From assembly GCF_000003815.2 (NCBI RefSeq), contig NC_049983.1:15624246-15688245 (forward strand): DNA of 64,000 nt, read 5' to 3'. Origin of the DNA: Branchiostoma floridae (taxonomy: Eukaryota; Chordata; Leptocardii; Amphioxiformes; Branchiostomatidae). The notes under the pieces are model-generated. The model had not been told where the DNA came from and did no database searches. It saw only the letters and a list, made by a program, of their open reading frames with translations. This document shows positions 7,787 through 61,660 of this stretch, piece after piece (the first letter of the stretch is position 1; the number at the start of each line of letters is the position of its first letter). The position numbers and the translations under genes were made by a program.

Positions 7787-8818
<1,032 letters not shown>

Positions 8819-12820: not shown

Positions 12821-32623
<19,803 letters not shown>

Positions 32624-32983
32624 GTTGAAAATGGCGTGATGAGGGACACACTGTCACGGTCTACAGACGCCACCTAACAGTTTTATGATGAACTGCAGTA
32701 CCTGCCCACATCGTATAGCTGCACGTATGATTTTTAACCGCTAGATGACGCTGTTGCACTGTCATTCAAACGGTCCACAGAGTCAAACTCAAAGTTGTGA
32801 TCTTCAAGTAGATGCCGCAGTGGGACCTCTTCATCTAGCGGAGAGGACAGAAGAGACTCGGGAGCTATGATATGTCTGGAAACCATGCCCAGACTATATT
32901 TTTGTGGCCCTTCTGCGTTTCTACCTCTCTCTACAGCAGTACTTTTTCTTCTGGCAGTCCAAGCGCCAAGAGCCCAACATACG

Positions 32984-33100
32984 TGTTGGACGCCCGTTTG
33001 AGGCACTTGACATGGTCACGTAAAAAAAAGATTAAAAAATTGCGGTGGGCTAAATCAGGCTGTCAAAGGTGTCCTCGTAATCCCAACGAGTTGTTCTATC
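32984..33100 (+). repeat. Left terminal inverted repeat of the foldback element
   Basis: Starts TGTTGGACGCCCGTTTGAGG and ends GAGTTGTTCTATC; complementary to 38162-38277. Confidence 0.92.
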
Positions 33101-33566
33101 TGCCTTGTGAATCTCAAGCGATGGACTTTTACGAGAAAGTATATATTTAATGTCAAAGTTGACCGATTTTCGACAGCTTTTACCTATGGTTTCGCCATTG
33201 TTTTCAAGCCGAAATACGCACCGTATGGCCATGGGGGTTTCGGGGTGTCCGCTTAGTGGGCGAGGTTCAACTGTTTCCGGGTCACGCTATACCGTTGCGG
33301 CAGTCACTCGGGACCTCACTCGGTAGTGTACACAAGTACTTTTGATGGTGCTGTCAGCGTTTTATCATGTTACGAAGTAATATTGAAATGTCTTTGAAGT
33401 ATAAGACAGCACTATGATCTGTAAGGTGTTATTCCAATAGGTTGCGTCGTGGGTAAAGTGAACTGTAGGTAACGTTATCCGACGAAGGCTTTTTTGCATC
33501 TGACTGTTAACTGTTGAAGATATTAGATACATTGCTCGCGCCTGACTGAGGGATTAACTAAGATTA

Positions 33567-34385
33567 GAACAGTATATAGCTAATTAATAGCGAAAAACGT
33601 GTTCAGAAGAGAAACTGTGCCAATTTGAATGACACATCTAAAGGACCGTTGTGCGCTGCATTAAGTGTATATAGCTAACTAATAGCGAAAAACGTGTTCA
33701 GAAGAGAAACTGTGTCAATTTTGATGACAGACTTACAGAACAGTAAGAACTATAACGTTATGTAGCTACATGTAATAGCGCAAAACGTGTTCAGAAGACA
33801 AAATGTGTCAATTTGAATGACACACTTGCAGATAGCGCAATAAGAACTGTACATAGCTAACTCATAGCGGAAAAGCGTTCAGGAGACAAACTGTGTCAAT
33901 TTGAATGACACACTTACAGGTAGCGCAATAAGAAATGTATATAGCTAACTCATAGCGAAGTGTAACGTGATCAGAAGACAAACTGTGTCAATTTGAATGA
34001 CACACTTGCAGATAGCGCAATAAGAACTGTATATAGCAAACTAATAGCGGAAAAGTGTTCAGGAGACAAACTGTGTCAATTTGAATGACACACTTCCAGG
34101 TAGCGCAATAAGAACTGTATATAGCAAACTAATAGCGGAAAAAGTGTTCAGGAGACAAACTGTGTCAATTTGAATGACACACTTGCAGATAGCGCAATAA
34201 CAAATGTACATAGCTAACTCATAGCGAAGTGTTACGTGTTCAGAAGACAAACTGTGTCAATTTGAATGACACACTTGCAGATAGCGCAATAAGAACTGTA
34301 TATAGCAAACTAATAGTGGAAAAAGTGTTCAGAAGACAAACTGTGTCAATTTGAATGACACACTTGCAGATGGCGCAATAAGGAT
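33567..34385 (+). repeat. Left subrepeat array, 9 units of 87-94 bp
   Basis: Each unit carries 'GTATATAGC.AACTAATAGCG', 'GTGTTCAGAAGACAAACTG', the core TGTGTCA-N7-TGACACA, and 'CTTGCAGATAGCGCAATAAG'. Cores start at about 33616, 33710, 33803, 33891, 33984, 34071, 34162, 34251 and 34342. Confidence 0.92.
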
Positions 34386-35269
34386 CAATTTTGCACACGT
34401 TAAACAGCGCTTTTCTAATTGTGGGTGATATAGATTGACACAGTTGTCCCCCGGAAAAACGTTTTTCATTTTTAAGACACGGTTCAAACATCGCTTACAA
34501 AGGTGTCAGACAAATTCACACAATTTCCCTCCAGAAAAAGTCGTCCGCCATCAAGACAATTTTACACTGATTTCACATCGTGTTTCATAGTGTGTCATAT
34601 GAAATAACAGTTGTCCTCCTGACAAGGTTTTCTGTCATTTGATACAGTTGTCGTCCTGACCGTGAGGGTTTTCCGTTTTGTGAAATTTTAATAAGTTTTA
34701 AAAAAACTTGTTAATTGACACAGTTGTCGTCCCGACCAAGTCTTCCATCAGTTTAATACTGTTTAATCATCGCACTAGTGTGCCATACTATCAGTGACAG
34801 TTGTCCACCAAAGTTTCCGTCATGAGGCAGTTTTATACTGTTTAACACTCGGTTACTAATTGCAAAGCCGTCCTCCTGACAAAGTTTTCTGTTATAAACT
34901 ATTGTGTCAATTAATGTGACAAACTAGCAAACTGAATAGATATGCCTAAATCGTATAATCATTCGATTGAAACAGTTTTCGGCAGAGCGAGTTTTCCGTC
35001 ATAAGATAGTTATTATGCGTTTCAAAAGTGTGTCATATGATTGACACAGTTTTCAGCTCAGACAGCGCAGTTACTAGATTTGACAGTTTACTTGAACAAG
35101 TTAGTATTTCAGTTACTTTAAACCCTACCATGGTCCAAACTCCAGTAATCAGTTGTTAATTGATATGAAATAACCGCACCTAAAGTCATATATATACGAA
35201 GGAACGCCATTTAGTTCGTAAGAAGGGACCTTAGAACTTGTCTGACACACTTGCAGAAAAGCGCTGCCT
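34386..35269. repeat. Central region of the foldback element
   Basis: About seven decayed units with 'GACACAGTTGTCC.CC' and 'GACAAGTTTTC.GTCAT' motifs at ~90-120 bp spacing. They are clearly related to, but far more diverged than, the arms. No gene. Confidence 0.6.
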
Positions 35270-37745
35270 GAACCGCGCTATTATGTAAGTGTGTCATTCA
35301 TATTGACACAGTTTGACTTCTGAACACGTATTTTGCTATTAGTTAGCTATATACAGTTCTTACGGCGCTATTATGTAAGTGTGTCATTCAAATTGACACA
35401 GTTTGTCTCCTGAATACGTTTTCGGTATTAGTTTGTTATATACAGTTATTTGGGCGCTGTCTACAAGTGTGTCATTCAAATTGACACAGTTTGACATTTG
35501 AACACGCATTCCGCTTTAAGTTAACTATATACAGTTCTTACAGCGCTATTCTATGATGCATTGTGTCATTCAAATTGACACAGTTTGTCTCCTGAACATG
35601 TTTTTCGCTCCTAGTTAGCTCTATACAATTCTTACGGCACTATCATGTAAGTGTGTCATTCAAATTGACACAGTTGGACTCCTGAACACGTTTTTCGCTA
35701 TTAGTTAGCTATATACATTTCTTTCAGCTTTGTTCTATAAGTGTGTCATTCAAAGTGACACAGTTGGACTCCTGAACACGCATTGCATTTTAAGTTACCT
35801 ATACAGTTTTTTTTACAGCGCTGTTCTATTAATGCATCATTCAAATTGACACAGTTTGTCTCCTGAACACGTTTTTTCGCTATTAGTTAGCTGTATACAT
35901 TTCATTCAGCTTTGTTCTATAAGTGTGTCATTCAAATTGTCACAGTTTGTCTCCTGAATACGTTTTCGCTATTAGTTTGCTATAGACAGTTCTTTGGGCG
36001 CTGTCTACAAGTGTGTCATTCAAATTGACACAGATTGACATTTGAACACGCATTCCGCTTCAAGTTAACTATATACAGTTCTTACAGCGCTATTCTATAA
36101 TGCATTGTGTCATTCAAATTGACACAGTTTGTCTCCTGAACACGTTTCTCGCTATTAGTGAGCTATACACAGTTCTTACGGCGCTATTATGTCAGTGTGT
36201 CATTCAAATTGACATAGTTTGTCTCCTGAACACGTTTACGCTATTAGTTAGCTATATAAAGTTCTTTTAGCTTTCTTTTAGCTTTGTTCTATAAGTGTGT
36301 CATTCAAATTGACACAGTTTGACATTTGAACACGCATTGCGCTTTAAGTTAGCTATATACAGTTCTTACAGCGCTGTTCTATGAATGCATCATTCAAATT
36401 GACACAATTAATTTGTCTCCTGAACACGTTTTTCGCTATTAGTTAGCTATATACAGTTCATTCAGCTTTGTTCTATATTATTATGTTATTTGGGCGCTGT
36501 CTACAAGTGTGTCATTCAAATTGACACAGATTGACATTTGAACACGCATTCCGCTTCAAGTTAACTATATTCAGTTATTACAGCGCTATTCTATAATGCA
36601 TTGTGTCATTCAAATTGACACAGTTTGTCTCCTGAACACGTTTTTCGCTATTAGTTAGCTATATACAATCCTTACGGCACCATTATGTAAGTGTGTCATT
36701 CAAATTGACACAGTTTGACTCCTGAACACGTTTTTCGCTATTAGTTAGCTATATACATTTCTTTCAGCTTTGTTCTATAAGTGTGTCATTCAAAGTGACA
36801 CAGTTGGACTACTGAACACGCATATGCATTGCACTTTAAGTTACCTATATACAGTTTTTTTACAGCGCTGTCCTATGAATGCATCATTCAAATTGACACA
36901 GTGTGTCTCCTGAACACGTTTTTCGCTATTAGTTAGCTGTATACAGTTCATTCAGCTTTGTTCTATAAGTGTGTCATTCAAATGGACACAGTTTGTCTCC
37001 TGAATACGTTTTCGCTATTAGTTTGCTATATACAGTTCTTTGGGCGCTGTCTACAAGAGTGTCATTCAAATTGACATAGATTGACATTTGAACACGCAAT
37101 CCGCTTCAAGTTAACTATATACTGTTCTTACAGCGCTATTCTATAATGCATTGTGTCATTCAAATTGGCACAGTTTGTCTCCTGAACATGTTTTTCGCTC
37201 CTAGTTAGCTATATACAGTTCTTTATAATACGGCACTATCATGTAAGTGTGTCATTCAAATTGACACAGTTTGACTCCTGAACACGTTTTCCGCTATTAG
37301 TTAGCTATATACAGTTCTTTTAGCTTTGTTCTATAAGTGTGTCATTTAAATTGGCACAGTTTGACACCTGAATACGCGATTACTTAATAGCTATATACAG
37401 GTCTAACATCGCTGTTCTATAAATGTGTCATTCAAAGTGACACATTTTGTCTCCTGAACACGTTTCTCGCTATTTGTTAGCTACATACAGTTCTTACGGC
37501 GCTATTATGTAAGTGCGCCATTCAAATTGACATAGTTTGTCTCCTAAACACGTTTATCGCTATTAGTTAAGCTACATACAGTTCTTACGGCGCTACTATG
37601 TAAGTGTGTCATTCAAATTGACACACTGGTTTGTCTCCCCAAGGAGGTCTCCCGAACACGTTTTCCGCTATTAGTTCCCTGTATACACTTCTTACAGCAC
37701 TGTTCTATAAATGTGTTATTCAAATTAACACAGTTTGTCTCCTGA
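35270..37745 (-). repeat. Right subrepeat array, 27 units of ~90 bp
   Basis: Opposite orientation to the left array. Cores TGTGTCA-N7-TGACACA start from about 35290 to 37712. Some units show GCATCATTC or GTGCGCCATTC mutations. Frames running through it are periodic artefacts. Confidence 0.93.
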
Positions 37746-38161
37746 TGTCTACGAGAATACCAGTTAGTTCGTTCGGAAGGGACATTACAACCGTTGCAGA
37801 TTCGCAACGTGGGCCGAGACGATACGAACAAACACAAACTTAAAAAACGTTCTGCAAGTTCAAACATACTTTCGCCAAGAGTCCCTTAACAAACCTAATT
37901 TAACAATATGCATAAGCCTGACTTGAATCCTCCTCTACCGAACCTAGCGCAGACTGAGACCGTCAAGATACCTGGTGACCCGCGTTCAATGACCTCACTC
38001 GTACGACCCGGAAGTATATGATCGTAATCGGTTGCACGGAAAACCCCATGCAGTGCGAAATCGAGGCCAAAAACAGGCATAAAGAGCCAGTTTGAAGGCT
38101 AACTTTGACTCTTCAAATCTCATCCCGAAATAATATTTGAATCAACACGAGTACTGTAGGC

Positions 38162-38277
38162 GATAGAACAACTCGTGGGGATTACGAGGACACCTTTGAT
38201 AGCCTGATTTGGGCCACCGCGATTTTTTAATCTTTTTTTACGCGACCATGTCAAGTGCCTCAAATGGGCGTCCAACA
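38162..38277 (-). repeat. Right terminal inverted repeat of the foldback element
   Basis: Reverse complement of 32984-33100, ending GGGCGTCCAACA. Confidence 0.92.
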
Positions 38278-38814
38278 TTCGTCCGGGCACTGCCATCATG
38301 GGACCTTAGCTTCCTTCACCACGTAACAATCTGCATATGTTGACTGAATTTCATATCAGCGCTCCCTCAATAATAAACTCTATCGCTCGTGGAAGAATGC
38401 GAATGATGCTAGGAGAATTTTTATTAAAGGTGTGTACAGAACAGGTTTCAAGTTACTAGTACTACTTGATCTTGTCAGTTGAGGTGACGTCTACTAGGAA
38501 AATAAGTCCATGGCAGTGCTTGGCAAAAAAGTTTAGAGGTCTAAGTTTAAGTTCACATTTTTCACAATCTGCTGCAAAATGACATTAGATACTAACATAC
38601 TAACTAAAATATTGCGATCGCTCTTTGAATGTCACGTGACTAGGTCCTAAATCATAGATAAAATTGATCGAGACACACCGGCTATTCTTTGATACTTTAC
38701 AGGTGGCCAGTAAATCATTTTGTTTGTTTATCAGGATTTGCCCAGCTTTTAAAGTGAACGCCACAAGATTTTGAAACTCTCGCCGTCTTGCCGTGAGAGG
38801 ATATGTTGACAAAT

Positions 38815-51200: not shown

Positions 51201-53483
51201 ATGATAGAGTCGACTTTCAGGAGATCAATACACTGGAATCTCTGGTTATTTTGAAATTCAGCGACCCAAATCAAGAGATTCAGGCAATAAAAAAACGGAC
51301 CGAAACTGAAGTTTTGACAATATGTCACGCGGCCTAAAGTTCAAGTGTGAGCCGCTTTAGAGAGAACATGGCATTTAGAGCGATAAACAAATTCTTCAAG
51401 TCAAATATACCTAAACCTAAGATGTATAATACAGTATATAACACATTTTGATGGATAAAAATGCTTTATCATTGTTTTCAAATGAAAAACGTTTTCAAGC
51501 AGTTGCAAACTTTCCTGCACATGATATCCTTAATCAAAGCAAAATGGCGTTTCAATTCTAAAATGCCACGTCAAGTGTTATTCTATCACAGACATGCATA
51601 TCCAAGTGCGTCTGAGCCACTAGCATCAATTTCTACAATGAAAAGATCGAACAACACAATGTTTTGCTTGTCATCGAATGATATAGTAATGCATGCTTAA
51701 GTGAAAAGGACACAAAATCTACAAAAGAAAAACACAGTCATTGACAGGCTAACTTTTAATTCCATAAGCTGACTATGAAGTACTTAAAGTATGTCAGTAA
51801 TTTATGAACTGTCACATAGAGACAATACAGATTTATACAGGTACTGTACGTGTGTATGTGTGGCAGTCTGTTGTTTGCTGTCAGCACTCACTCTAAGCTA
51901 TTAGTCCCGGGGCGTCAGGCTTTCGAGTATCTCTAGTGAAAGGTTAGCGGACGGCAAGCAAACACTGTCAGATGGTTGTTGAAAGATGGACCAGAGCGCA
52001 CTGTAGATCAGCTTATCTTAGTAAGAACTTAATTTCACGTTAGGATTGGATGTTTTTCCAGGCTTTTAAATTAAGATCGCGCTTGAAACAAAAAAATCGT
52101 TGGTACGGTACTACGGTTGTACCACAACGGTAAACGCCTGTTGAATAAGAAAAAAATAAAACCACCAAGAGAATTTTGAGATTTTCAAGACCCGGTGTCC
52201 CGACCTTTCGCTTGAGACGTTTGTACCCTGTTTATCAGCAGGTCCGTGAGTGAGTGTAGTAACCATAGATCAACTTACTGTTTATGTGTATCGCCATTTA
52301 TCTGTGGTTACGAGAAAACCCAACTGTCACTTTTATTAGTTTCAGATGTAGGCAGAATTCGACGTCTTTTACGTTTCGCTTGGTTGACGGCTTGCAAAAA
52401 GCTACAATGTACTGCAGCAAATGGATACATAGATTCCGCAATCGGTCAGTCGTTGAGAATTTGCTGTATTTTGTAAACTTGTACTGTTTTGTATGGCAGA
52501 ACTTTACAAGAACGTTAAGACTGCTTTGTTGCTGTAAGATCACTCAAGTTTTTCTGTTATCTGTACACTCATTTCTTTAACGTGATCCTTATCTAACGTG
52601 AGAACAAACTGCAAACTAAATATTGCTGTCCCGCAGTGGTAGCTATTAATACGACCGAGTAAACCTCGGAAAAAGGAAATTAGAATATTTAGAAAAAAGA
52701 CCCAAGTAGAGAATCCACAAATCATTCTTATAAGAGCATGCAAGGCTGTTGATCAAACTTAGCACCCAGTCTTCTTACACAGCTTGTAAAACTACTACGT
52801 TACATAAAAATCCCCTTTACCAGCCATACGATTGAAGGGCAGCCTGTACTCGACATAATAAATCAAGCGATGAGCAACCACCTGGTTACCCACCTGTAGT
52901 ATACACAGACTAATGCGTGTGGCTAGTACCAATATTGTTGTTTCTCTTACTCTCCAAGCAGAGGTTAGGCTCCCGCTCCGTTAGGCCACGATGCATAAAA
53001 AACAGTATAAAATAAAAAGCCCGATAAAAATGCCTTAAAAACGTCATAAAACAAAAACAAATGGAGCCAAACGTCTGCTTGGAGAGTAGTGTTTCTATCA
53101 TTGATACGGATAATAGGCACTGAAAAGCCCGTACCTGGCAGACCGGTAGCCCCAGGACCCACTGGTGAGCGACGATGTTGACGGTACTGAGCGGCATGAC
53201 GACCGTCCCGACAGCCAGGTCAGATACGGCCAGGCTCACGATGAAGAAATTACTGATGATGAAGCACAAGGCATAAGTTAAAACAGAATCTTGAGTAATT
53301 CTGATATATCTTACAATGGGATCATTACGCGTTTAGCTATATTGCTTTTCATTCACCCAAACACAGACACGCAGTCACATAGACACACGGATATACACTT
53401 ACGCACAGCATAGACAAACACATACATGCACATGGCGTTCCCTACACTGGTCAGCAGGCACAGCTAGCCCAGGGCGGGCACGC

Positions 53484-53560
<77 letters not shown>

Positions 53561-53696
53561 AACACCTTAGCTGACTGTCTGCAGGTCCCTGTTGGTGCGC
53601 ACGGCGTGTAGCACCCGATCGCGTTCCCCACACTGGTCAGCAGGCCCAGCGAGCCCAGCACGGGCACGCACAGGCAGACAGACAGACAGACAGACA

Positions 53697-53734
<38 letters not shown>

Positions 53735-53860
53735 AACATACACCTTACCTGACTGTCTGCAGGTCCCTGTTGGTGCGCACGGCGTGTAGCACCCGATCGT
53801 GTTCCCCACACTGGTCAGCAGGCCCAGCGAGCCCAGCACGGGCACGCACAGGCAGACAGA

Positions 53861-53943
<83 letters not shown>

Positions 53944-54200
53944 ACAAACAAACATACACCTTACCTGACTGTCTGCAGGTCCCTGTTGGTGCGCACGGCG
54001 TGTAGCACCATGGCGTTCCCCACGCTGGTCAGTAGGCACAGCGAGCCAAGCACGATCCCCAGCGCCACGTCCGTCCACACCGACCCTCCGTCCACGGGCC
54101 CGACCGCCGTCACATTCCCACCGAACGAGCCGTTGCCGTCGTACGCCGTCGTCGGGAGGAAATCCGTCGCGAAGTCCGCTATCGTGGTGTTCCACGACAT
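44407..54200 (-). CDS. Histamine H1 receptor-like class A GPCR, 4 coding exons, 512 aa
   Basis: Seven-transmembrane amine receptor. Exons in transcript order: 53965-54200, 53135-53252, 45842-46189, 44407-45243. They sum to 1539 nt, with frame-keeping GT/AG junctions. The N-tail has glycosylation sequons (N4, N23, N29). Class A anchors are present: N62 (TM1), D90 (TM2), C117 and C198 (disulfide pair), DRY 141-143, CWLP 441-444, and NPFLY 477-481. H1-type ligand residues are D124 (3.32) and T129 in DYVAST, K209 and N216 in the FKVITSLFNFYFP segment of TM5, W442, Y445 and F449. The position equal to human H1 F432 is S446. ICL3 is long, serine-rich and basic (about 235-423), and ERKAAKQLG precedes TM6 as in human H1. 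The closest match by eye is HRH1, with muscarinic receptors next. A CTTACAG|GTGAGG just upstream of the ATG suggests a 5' noncoding exon. Confidence 0.88.
45842..46189 (-). CDS. GPCR exon 3: TM3 to TM5
   Basis: Encodes VWLSVDYVASTASIFNLFVL to IYAQIYNK, including DRY and the TM5 lysine and asparagine. Phase 0 at both ends. Acceptor TTACTGCAG|GTG; donor AAG|GTCTGT. Confidence 0.93.
47104..47322. mobile_element. MITE, CACTGCACTTGGGGCACCG family, second copy
   Basis: CACTGCACTTGGGGAACCGG faces CACCGGTGCCGTGAGTGTAGTG; more decayed than 39621-39843. Confidence 0.8.
48530..48547. repeat. Solo terminus of the TAATCTCCAAGCAGATC family
   Basis: TAATCTCCAAGCAGATAC with no matching right end nearby. 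Confidence 0.6.
49978..50100. mobile_element. Short inverted-repeat element with GTTAATGCCCCGCC ends
   Basis: GTTAATGCCCCGCC at the left and GGCGGGGCATTAAC at the right are perfect complements, 123 bp end to end. Confidence 0.8.
50225..50248. repeat. 9-bp hairpin
   Basis: TGTTCGATC and GATCGAACA face each other across ACATCA. Confidence 0.55.
50487..50522. repeat. Perfect 17-bp hairpin with 2-nt loop
   Basis: AAAAGTGTGCGGTTATT and AATAACCGCACACTTTT are exact complements separated by CT, in AT-rich intron 2 of the GPCR gene. Confidence 0.9.
52948..53088. mobile_element. MITE with TACTCTCCAAGCAGA ends, 9-bp target duplication
   Basis: TACTCTCCAAGCAGAGGTT faces AACGTCTGCTTGGAGAGTA. Flanks TGTTTCTCT and TGTTTCTAT match at 8 of 9. 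The end sequence is shared with the TAATCTCCAAGCAGATC family but the interior is not. It lies 46 nt downstream of the exon 2 donor. Confidence 0.82.
53135..53252 (-). CDS. GPCR exon 2: TM2 and ECL1
   Basis: Encodes SNFFIVSLAVSDLAVGTVVM to LGLPVCQ. It holds D90 and C117. Acceptor CATCATCAG|TAA; donor CAG|GTACGG. Confidence 0.92.
53432..53480 (-). pseudogene. Truncated copy of GPCR exon 1 end
   Basis: Matches exon 1 around CATGGCGTTCCC.ACRCTGGTC and then 'AGCAGGCACAGC', fading into a CAGA run. It lacks the donor part. Unlike the next two copies, it keeps the CATGG spacing of the true exon. Confidence 0.75.
53571..53668 (-). pseudogene. Frameshifted copy of GPCR exon 1 end, donor lost
   Basis: Matches the last ~88 nt of exon 1 but has ACCCGATCG where the true exon has ACCATGG (a 2-nt gain, hence a frameshift). 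The donor reads CAG|CTAAGG instead of CAG|GTAAGG. Confidence 0.88.
53749..53846 (-). pseudogene. Frameshifted copy of GPCR exon 1 end, donor intact
   Basis: Shares the 2-nt gain with the previous copy (ACCCGATCG) but keeps CAG|GTAAGG. Homology to the true exon stops at a CAGA/CA repeat. If spliced into mRNA, it would shift the frame. Confidence 0.88.
53965..54200 (-). CDS. GPCR exon 1: N-tail and TM1
   Basis: Encodes MSWNTTIADFATDFLPTTAY through TM1 (ALGIVLGSLCLLTSVGNAMV) to NRDLQTV. Donor CAG|GTAAGG. The start is the first ATG after an upstream acceptor-like CTTACAG. Confidence 0.9.
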
Positions 54201-55016
54201 GTTCTTGGAAGGAAGCCCTCACCTGTAAGGGCGGGAGGTTGGACGGTACAGATCAGCCCAGCCCTTGTAACGTTCCCGGCTTTACTAGGCGTGAACTGGT
54301 CGATAACGATCACACAGACCGCACTTGCTCGTGTGAATACCGTCCCTCACCAACACACTAACACCACAGGCTGTATATTTTCTCCCCTGACTGCATCTGA
54401 CACAGATAAACTACACTCGTCCCTGCACTTAAGAGTAGTCACCCTTTAATGGACCCTTAAGGACGTCTCCCCGGTGCAGCCATGCGAAGTATGTCAAAAC
54501 ATCAAACTTAATTACCCTCGACTCCGCCGCGAGAATCATACAGTCTGGCAAAGAATTCAGGAATCCCGGTGCAACGCATGTAAAACGCTACATAGCGTGC
54601 GTTTCCCTGTAAAAAATCTCTTCTATTCAGCAAGACGTACAAATACGGAACCGGTTTGTCAGTGCGAGACGGCTACTAGGAAGTCAGGTTGTCAGGAGTT
54701 ACGTAATCAGAGTGAGTGCCAAGCGAGCGCGGGTCTACCAGTTAATCTGTACAACCATATGTCACCTTGTGTTGGCTAGGTGCCGCGGGCGGGCAGTAGG
54801 GTCATCTCCCAGTAGTATACACGTGTGGCTTCGGTTTTCTTTTGCAGTGTGTCGAGCTGGATAGGAACTACAGAGAGCTATAGGCATATAAAGCCTCACA
54901 AAGCCTCGCAAAATCAGTTCAGTCACACATCTACGTGAAGAGTATTTTCGATGTACTGGAGTGTTTCTATGTTTGTGTCATGTGCGTCGAAATGTGAGTG
55001 CATACGTCGTATGCGC

Positions 55017-61589: not shown

Positions 61590-61660
61590 TGCGCCGCCCG
61601 GGAATCGAACCCGGGTCGCAAGAATGGGAATCTTGCATGATACCACTACACCAGCGGCGC
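61590..61660 (-). tRNA. tRNA-Gly, anticodon CCC
   Basis: 71 nt without intron or encoded CCA. The acceptor stem GCGCCGC pairs with GCGGCGC, with discriminator A. The D arm contains TGGTGTAGTGGTATCA, which is box A. The anticodon stem CAAGA/TCTTG encloses TTCCCAT, giving anticodon CCC for GGG codons. The T arm CCGGGTTCGATTCCCGG is box B. All stems pair fully. It is followed by a T5 terminator. Confidence 0.98.

Follow-up and report, generated by a model that had tools for sequence, protein, structure and literature searches.

The 64-kb window (the whole stretch of DNA that was analysed) contains genes of animal type, recognised by their BTB-kelch exons and by exons of a rhodopsin-family receptor. 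Near the receptor-like exons lies a repeated segment with long AC microsatellites (53464-54252), in which AC or ACAG is repeated perfectly in four runs (32-72 bp). The sole Rfam match in the window at the gathering score is a tRNA gene on the minus strand (61590-61660). Two minus-strand ORFs (1498-1875 and 19453-19806) are what we take, by eye, to be retroelement remnants (non-LTR reverse transcriptase), and a plus-strand ORF (7878-8330) appears on visual inspection to resemble the start of histone H4, followed by unrelated sequence.

The subject of this analysis is a 5.3-kb element located at positions 32984-38277 of the 64-kb window, which carries a terminal inverted repeat (TIR) at each end and tandem units of ~90 bp inside (Table 1). 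Both components appear to be confined to it within the window: all 39 hits of a unit profile with E-values up to 0.05 fall between the TIRs, none was found outside the element at this threshold, and BLASTN returned no other copy of either the TIR or the unit. Two exact-match scans of viral contigs gave no match. An 18-base piece of the TIR, compared with genome contigs, was found in four prokaryote records (with equal base frequencies, chance alone would give ~7), and among the matches listed for these records the longest TIR match does not exceed 22 bases; the scanned collections comprise viruses and prokaryotes, with near records possibly left out, and are uninformative on the host genome. 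Among the titles listed as matches in the open-licence amphioxus literature, none names such an element.

Table 1. Components of the element and its possible target duplication (positions in the 64-kb window)
Feature	Positions	Strand	Basis
Possible 4-bp target duplication, left copy TACG	32980..32983	.	3/4 match to 38278-38281
Left terminal inverted repeat; begins TGTTGGACGCCC	32984..33105	+	92.6% identical to inverted 38158-38277
Left spacer; no inverted counterpart on the right	33106..33565	.	115/200 shuffles as good vs right spacer
Left array; 9 units, ~90 bp each	33566..34382	-	Tandem Repeats Finder, core lists, profile hits
Decayed units, right-arm orientation	34383..35289	+	Profile hits 11/12 on +; 4 beat 200/200 shuffles
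Right array; 27 units, last cut short; 6-unit higher-order repeat over much of array	35290..37745	+	
Right spacer	37746..38157	.	Compared with left spacer
Right terminal inverted repeat; ends GGGCGTCCAACA	38158..38277	-	Inverted match to left TIR
Possible 4-bp target duplication, right copy TTCG	38278..38281	.	3/4 match to 32980-32983

Termini, target site and spacers

The inverted-repeat comparison identified TIRs of 122 bp on the left and 120 bp on the right, starting inwards from 32984 and 38277, and thus bears out the ~117-bp repeats proposed in the initial annotation. Aligned in 122 columns, the pair exhibits 92.6% identity (E-values of 5e-47 and 5e-45), with 7 substitutions in 120 aligned positions and 2 gap columns. 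Base 32984 is aligned with base 38277, i.e. the outer ends of the two repeats coincide to the base. The ends of the element read TGTTG...CAACA. The similarity stops where the flanks diverge; when the 4-kb flanks were compared with each other, no similarity was found at E up to 1. The possibility of an LTR element was rejected, as the terminal repeats are inverted, not direct.

The flanks were compared for duplications of 2 to 12 bp, and the sole candidate is TACG/TTCG with 3 of 4 positions matching (the probability of such a match by chance is 0.05 for the 4-bp length alone, and eleven lengths were examined). The putative 4-bp target on the left is preceded by CCAACA, which is the element's own right end, so that positions 32974-32989 read CCAACA-TACG-TGTTGG; this may be due to chance or to a preference for self-like targets. 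A target duplication of 8-10 bp, such as described for copies of Tetris and Tm1 in the accounts available for these elements, is not recognisable in the flanks, which match at 4 of 8 (chance 0.11), 1 of 9 and 1 of 10 positions. Since the TIRs have diverged by just ~6%, a duplication of this length should still show, and its absence counts against the known foldback elements that generate them. It is possible that the duplication has decayed or was lost by deletion in this old copy; according to the Tm1 account, 8 of the 53 complete elements lack an 8-10-bp duplication.

Between the TIRs and the arrays lie spacers of 460 bp (left) and 412 bp (right). Compared as inverted copies they are not alike: their best score of 19 was equalled by 115 of 200 shuffles. 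Inverted similarity is therefore present on the inside (arrays) and on the outside (TIRs), but not in the spacers between them. A stretch of the left spacer (33412-33438) weakly resembles part of the unit (3 of 200 shuffles were as good, for the best of three regions tested), and is possibly the seed of the array, or a chance similarity. The right spacer has no unit-like stretch (114 of 200 shuffles as good). We also considered whether the unit derives from the TIR by copying, a link proposed for Tetris, and rejected this, as the local alignment of one unit with the left TIR was matched by 43 of 200 shuffles.

The dissimilarity of the spacers and the lack of a clear target duplication, together with the fact that the whole structure is known from a single copy, would also agree with there being no single element at this site, but a local minisatellite and an inversion between two opposed copies of a 120-bp dispersed repeat. 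We regard this as improbable, because the outer ends of the two repeats fall on the same base, because no further copy of the repeats or the units is present in the 64-kb window, and because the TGT...ACA ends resemble transposon termini.

Unit arrays, central segment and unit core

The left array contains 9 unit cores (33616-34342) and the right array contains 27 (35290-37712), the last of which is incomplete. The cores were counted from fuzzy core lists, with the better-matching orientation taken for each, as the core is nearly palindromic; the profile hits agree with these lists, and both reproduce the earlier count of 9 units one way and 27 inverted. Tandem Repeats Finder scores the left array at up to 1127 and the right array at up to 1703.

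For the unit profile we used all units except R13, R26, R27 and L1 (32 of 36). It was run on the centre (34383-35289), on both outer stretches (TIR and spacer) and on flanking sequence, 1 kb per side. With E-values up to 10, the centre yielded 12 hits, 11 on the plus strand and one (2.2 bits) on the minus strand; one of the 11 (35272-35289) corresponds to the edge of the intact right array. Four hits in the centre (15.6, 15.5, 10.0 and 8.2 bits) outscore all of 200 Markov shuffles, the highest of which reached 7.1 bits; none of the remaining eight hits does. The flanks gave one hit (2.6 bits, left flank), and the outer stretches gave none. At E up to 0.05, the hits in the whole window run as 9 on the minus strand followed by 30 on the plus strand, three of them in the centre, which indicates one change of direction, at ~34383-34423. 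As the decayed units of the centre share the orientation of the right arm, the centre reads as an old part of the right array. The "decayed centre" of the initial annotation holds decayed units, and we rejected a separate middle domain on account of their right-arm orientation in the profile hits (11 of 12 on the plus strand).

Within the right array, the mean identity of units peaks at lags 11 (0.88), 6 (0.84), 14 (0.83) and 3 (0.82), and the segment 35445-36459 is repeated at 36485-37493, which constitutes an internal duplication of 1.04 kb. As read from the alignment, the lag peaks would fit a six-unit higher-order repeat that lost one unit at R13.

The unit carries a 21-bp interrupted palindrome (TGTGTCA-7nt-TGACACA). 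When a 21-bp frame was slid along the unit (70 stretches), this core came out as the most conserved (mean 0.97 vs 0.84 for the rest, 34 units), as measured in units that were themselves located by this core. In an analysis of 18 of the 36 cores (13 distinct), we found one compensatory change, and the structure of the palindrome pairs better than its own slid versions; none of the five pair measures used for these cores beats shuffles (149, 111, 111, 500 and 81 of 500 shuffles were as high). Five stretches folded as single-stranded DNA are unremarkable (z from -1.05 to 0.84), and the core hairpin is predicted in all three intact units that were folded. Selection on the palindrome as a hairpin is therefore unsupported by covariation or folding, while conservation of the core itself is seen. 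By analogy with Galileo, in which two of the four subrepeats carry secondary sites bound by the THAP domain of the transposase (matching passages of PMC3688188), the palindrome may serve to bind a protein.

The element is overlapped by 36 ORFs (stop to stop, at least 45 aa). Six of these 36 were scanned against Pfam, and revealed no family at the curated cutoff and no integrase-like transposase; the lone weak match, to a phage tail family (E 0.029), was taken as chance.

FB of the fly and TU of the sea urchin are foldback elements, and it was to their architecture that the present structure had initially been matched. The match holds for two traits, i.e. terminal inverted repeats at both ends and opposed tandem subrepeats on the two sides, and fails for three others: arrays within continuous long TIRs are absent, with dissimilar spacers (33106-33565 and 37746-38157) intervening, and neither the 8-10-bp duplication nor two arms around a middle domain was found. 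Hence, "foldback-like" is fair as a description of a TIR-bounded element with oppositely oriented arrays, and we do not file it as a foldback transposon, chiefly because of the dissimilar spacers, as the repeats of Tetris sit inside long TIRs. An origin as a true foldback element (of the FB, TU, Tetris, Galileo or Tm1 type), in which the arrays would have belonged to long composite TIRs, with later divergence or replacement of the spacers, seems to us rather unlikely. In its favour are the TIRs with their oppositely oriented arrays, and the fact that the tandem repeats of Tetris too are bordered on the outside by a flanking domain and differ in number between copies (matching passages of PMC4079207). 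Nonetheless, such an origin has to contend with spacers that lack inverted similarity although the arrays and TIRs on either side of them have it, with the missing duplication, and with a centre composed of right-arm units.

Divergence and proposed course of events

The TIRs differ from each other by 5.8% substitutions (2.4-11.6). The divergence of the 1.04-kb duplication in the right array is 5.5% (4.2-7.1) and that of the three-unit duplication in the left array (L7-L9 vs L4-L6) is 4.6% (2.4-7.9), while two shorter-lag repeats of the right array have diverged by 8.3% and 10.7%. Between the left and right arrays we found 15.6% substitutions (95% interval 13.1-18.4) in the best-matching 781 aligned positions. 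Assuming that the two TIRs did not differ when the element inserted, the most recent expansions on either side would be about as old as the insertion, and the split between left and right units would be older; with the wide interval for the TIRs, this order is indicated at best. The earlier suggestion that the arms grew after insertion agrees with this timing (4.6-5.5% for the youngest expansions, 5.8% for the TIRs), and the agreement is one of fit.

In a FastTree phylogeny of 34 of the 36 units (the two truncated ones were dropped; ~90 bp each, midpoint rooting, many nodes below 0.9), L4-L9, the six inner units of the left array, form one clade with support of 0.94, which groups with R01, R04, R10, R15, R21, R24 and R25 at 0.96. 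L2 and L3 do not belong to this left clade, so that the left block may derive from two or more sources.

The explanation we favour, and regard as reasonably probable, is that of an old TIR transposon, non-autonomous, that carries a minisatellite in its interior; at one edge this minisatellite would have been inverted, and the inverted part would have gone on to expand by itself. The element would be the insertion of a putative non-autonomous DNA transposon with ~120-bp TIRs, in which we found no coding capacity (6 of 36 ORFs scanned), and whose interior would have been colonised by a minisatellite with a palindromic unit of ~90 bp. The array would have grown one way first, leaving the inner part that is now decayed (its orientation and decay are observed, and the order of events is suggested by them); subsequently, part of the array would have been inverted, giving rise to the left block, of which the orientation is observed. 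Template switching or two independent captures could take the place of the inversion. As their sequences show, the two blocks then expanded separately, the right one through the six-unit higher-order repeat and the 1-kb duplication, the left one through the six-unit clade, with unequal exchange as the presumed cause. The element itself would have been moved by a transposase supplied in trans and acting on the TIR ends. In support of this explanation stand the matched TIR ends around all 39 profile hits, the divergence of the flanks right where the TIRs stop, the lack of a Pfam family at the cutoff in the six ORFs scanned, the one orientation switch with decayed units that continue the right array, the L4-L9 clade and the lag peaks. 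The want of a convincing target duplication and of a second copy in the window counts against it, as do the short units and the weak nodes of the tree. According to this scenario, the foldback look would be a secondary product of satellite turnover, and not the original structure of the TIRs.

Long inverted arrays are likely sites of rearrangement. If the proposed course of events is correct, the element documents legibly the way in which inverted satellite arms can come about within a transposon (from old units, through a single switch, to growth on each side by itself), and, if other copies exist, a foldback look would be reachable without extending the TIRs.

Comparison with Ginger and foldback transposons

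In its termini, the element can be compared with the Ginger transposons. Ginger elements are characterized by TGTNR...YNACA ends and a 4-bp target duplication, with TIRs of 40-270 bp in Ginger1 and 50-180 bp in Ginger2; the known families of Ginger1 target CCGG or CCGT, those of Ginger2 prefer RTATAY, and both groups are present in B. floridae (matching passages of PMC2836005). In B. lanceolatum, a copy of Ginger2-1 adjoins an opsin gene, as mentioned in a passage of PMC5802833. Both occurrences bear on the element provided that its host is an amphioxus. Our element resembles Ginger1 and Ginger2 in its TGTTG...CAACA ends, which agree with TGTNR (a short pattern, noticed after the fact), and in its TIR length of ~120 bp, which lies within both ranges; the candidate duplication TACG/TTCG (3/4 matching) would have the 4-bp length. 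It differs from them in the target, as TACG/TTCG fits neither CCGG or CCGT nor RTATAY. No transposase was found in the 6 of 36 ORFs scanned. Inverted satellite arrays, which are present here, are unmentioned for Ginger among the matches listed from PMC2836005. TG..CA ends with short duplications occur also in other groups, e.g. IS481EU (as stated in the matching part of PMC10045372), and the likeness to Ginger is one of terminal pattern. Within the favoured explanation, the class of the element as a non-autonomous Ginger-type (integrase-related) transposon, moved by a Ginger transposase of the host, is a tentative assignment, which we find possible but doubtful. It would be a long shot that the element represents an integrase-type (Ginger-like) family which arrived at a foldback-like architecture independently, not by lengthening of the TIRs but because a palindromic minisatellite inside it was inverted and expanded.

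With Tetris / DAIBAM, a foldback element of the Drosophila virilis group, the element shares a non-autonomous nature and the combination of TIRs, an adjoining flanking domain and tandem subrepeats that vary in number; Tetris has no conserved ORFs according to the matching passages of the report (PMC4079207), and no coding capacity was found here. Unlike Tetris, in which these passages place the repeats in long TIRs and describe 8-10-bp duplications, our element has dissimilar spacers of 412-460 bp and no such duplication. Galileo, a foldback-like member of the P superfamily, likewise has internally repetitive inverted ends (in the part of PMC3688188 that matched); it is likened here by description, not by sequence, and differs from our element, in which the TIR and the array are not continuous and no transposase was found. 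The arrangement of transposon ends around an expanding minisatellite is also known from miDNA4 of Xenopus, pearl/CvA of bivalves and the central repeats of Helentrons and DINEs (matching passages of PMC9659126). Compared with the descriptions of these satellite-carrying MITEs and non-autonomous transposons in the same passages, the present element is distinguished by two array orientations and a higher-order repeat.
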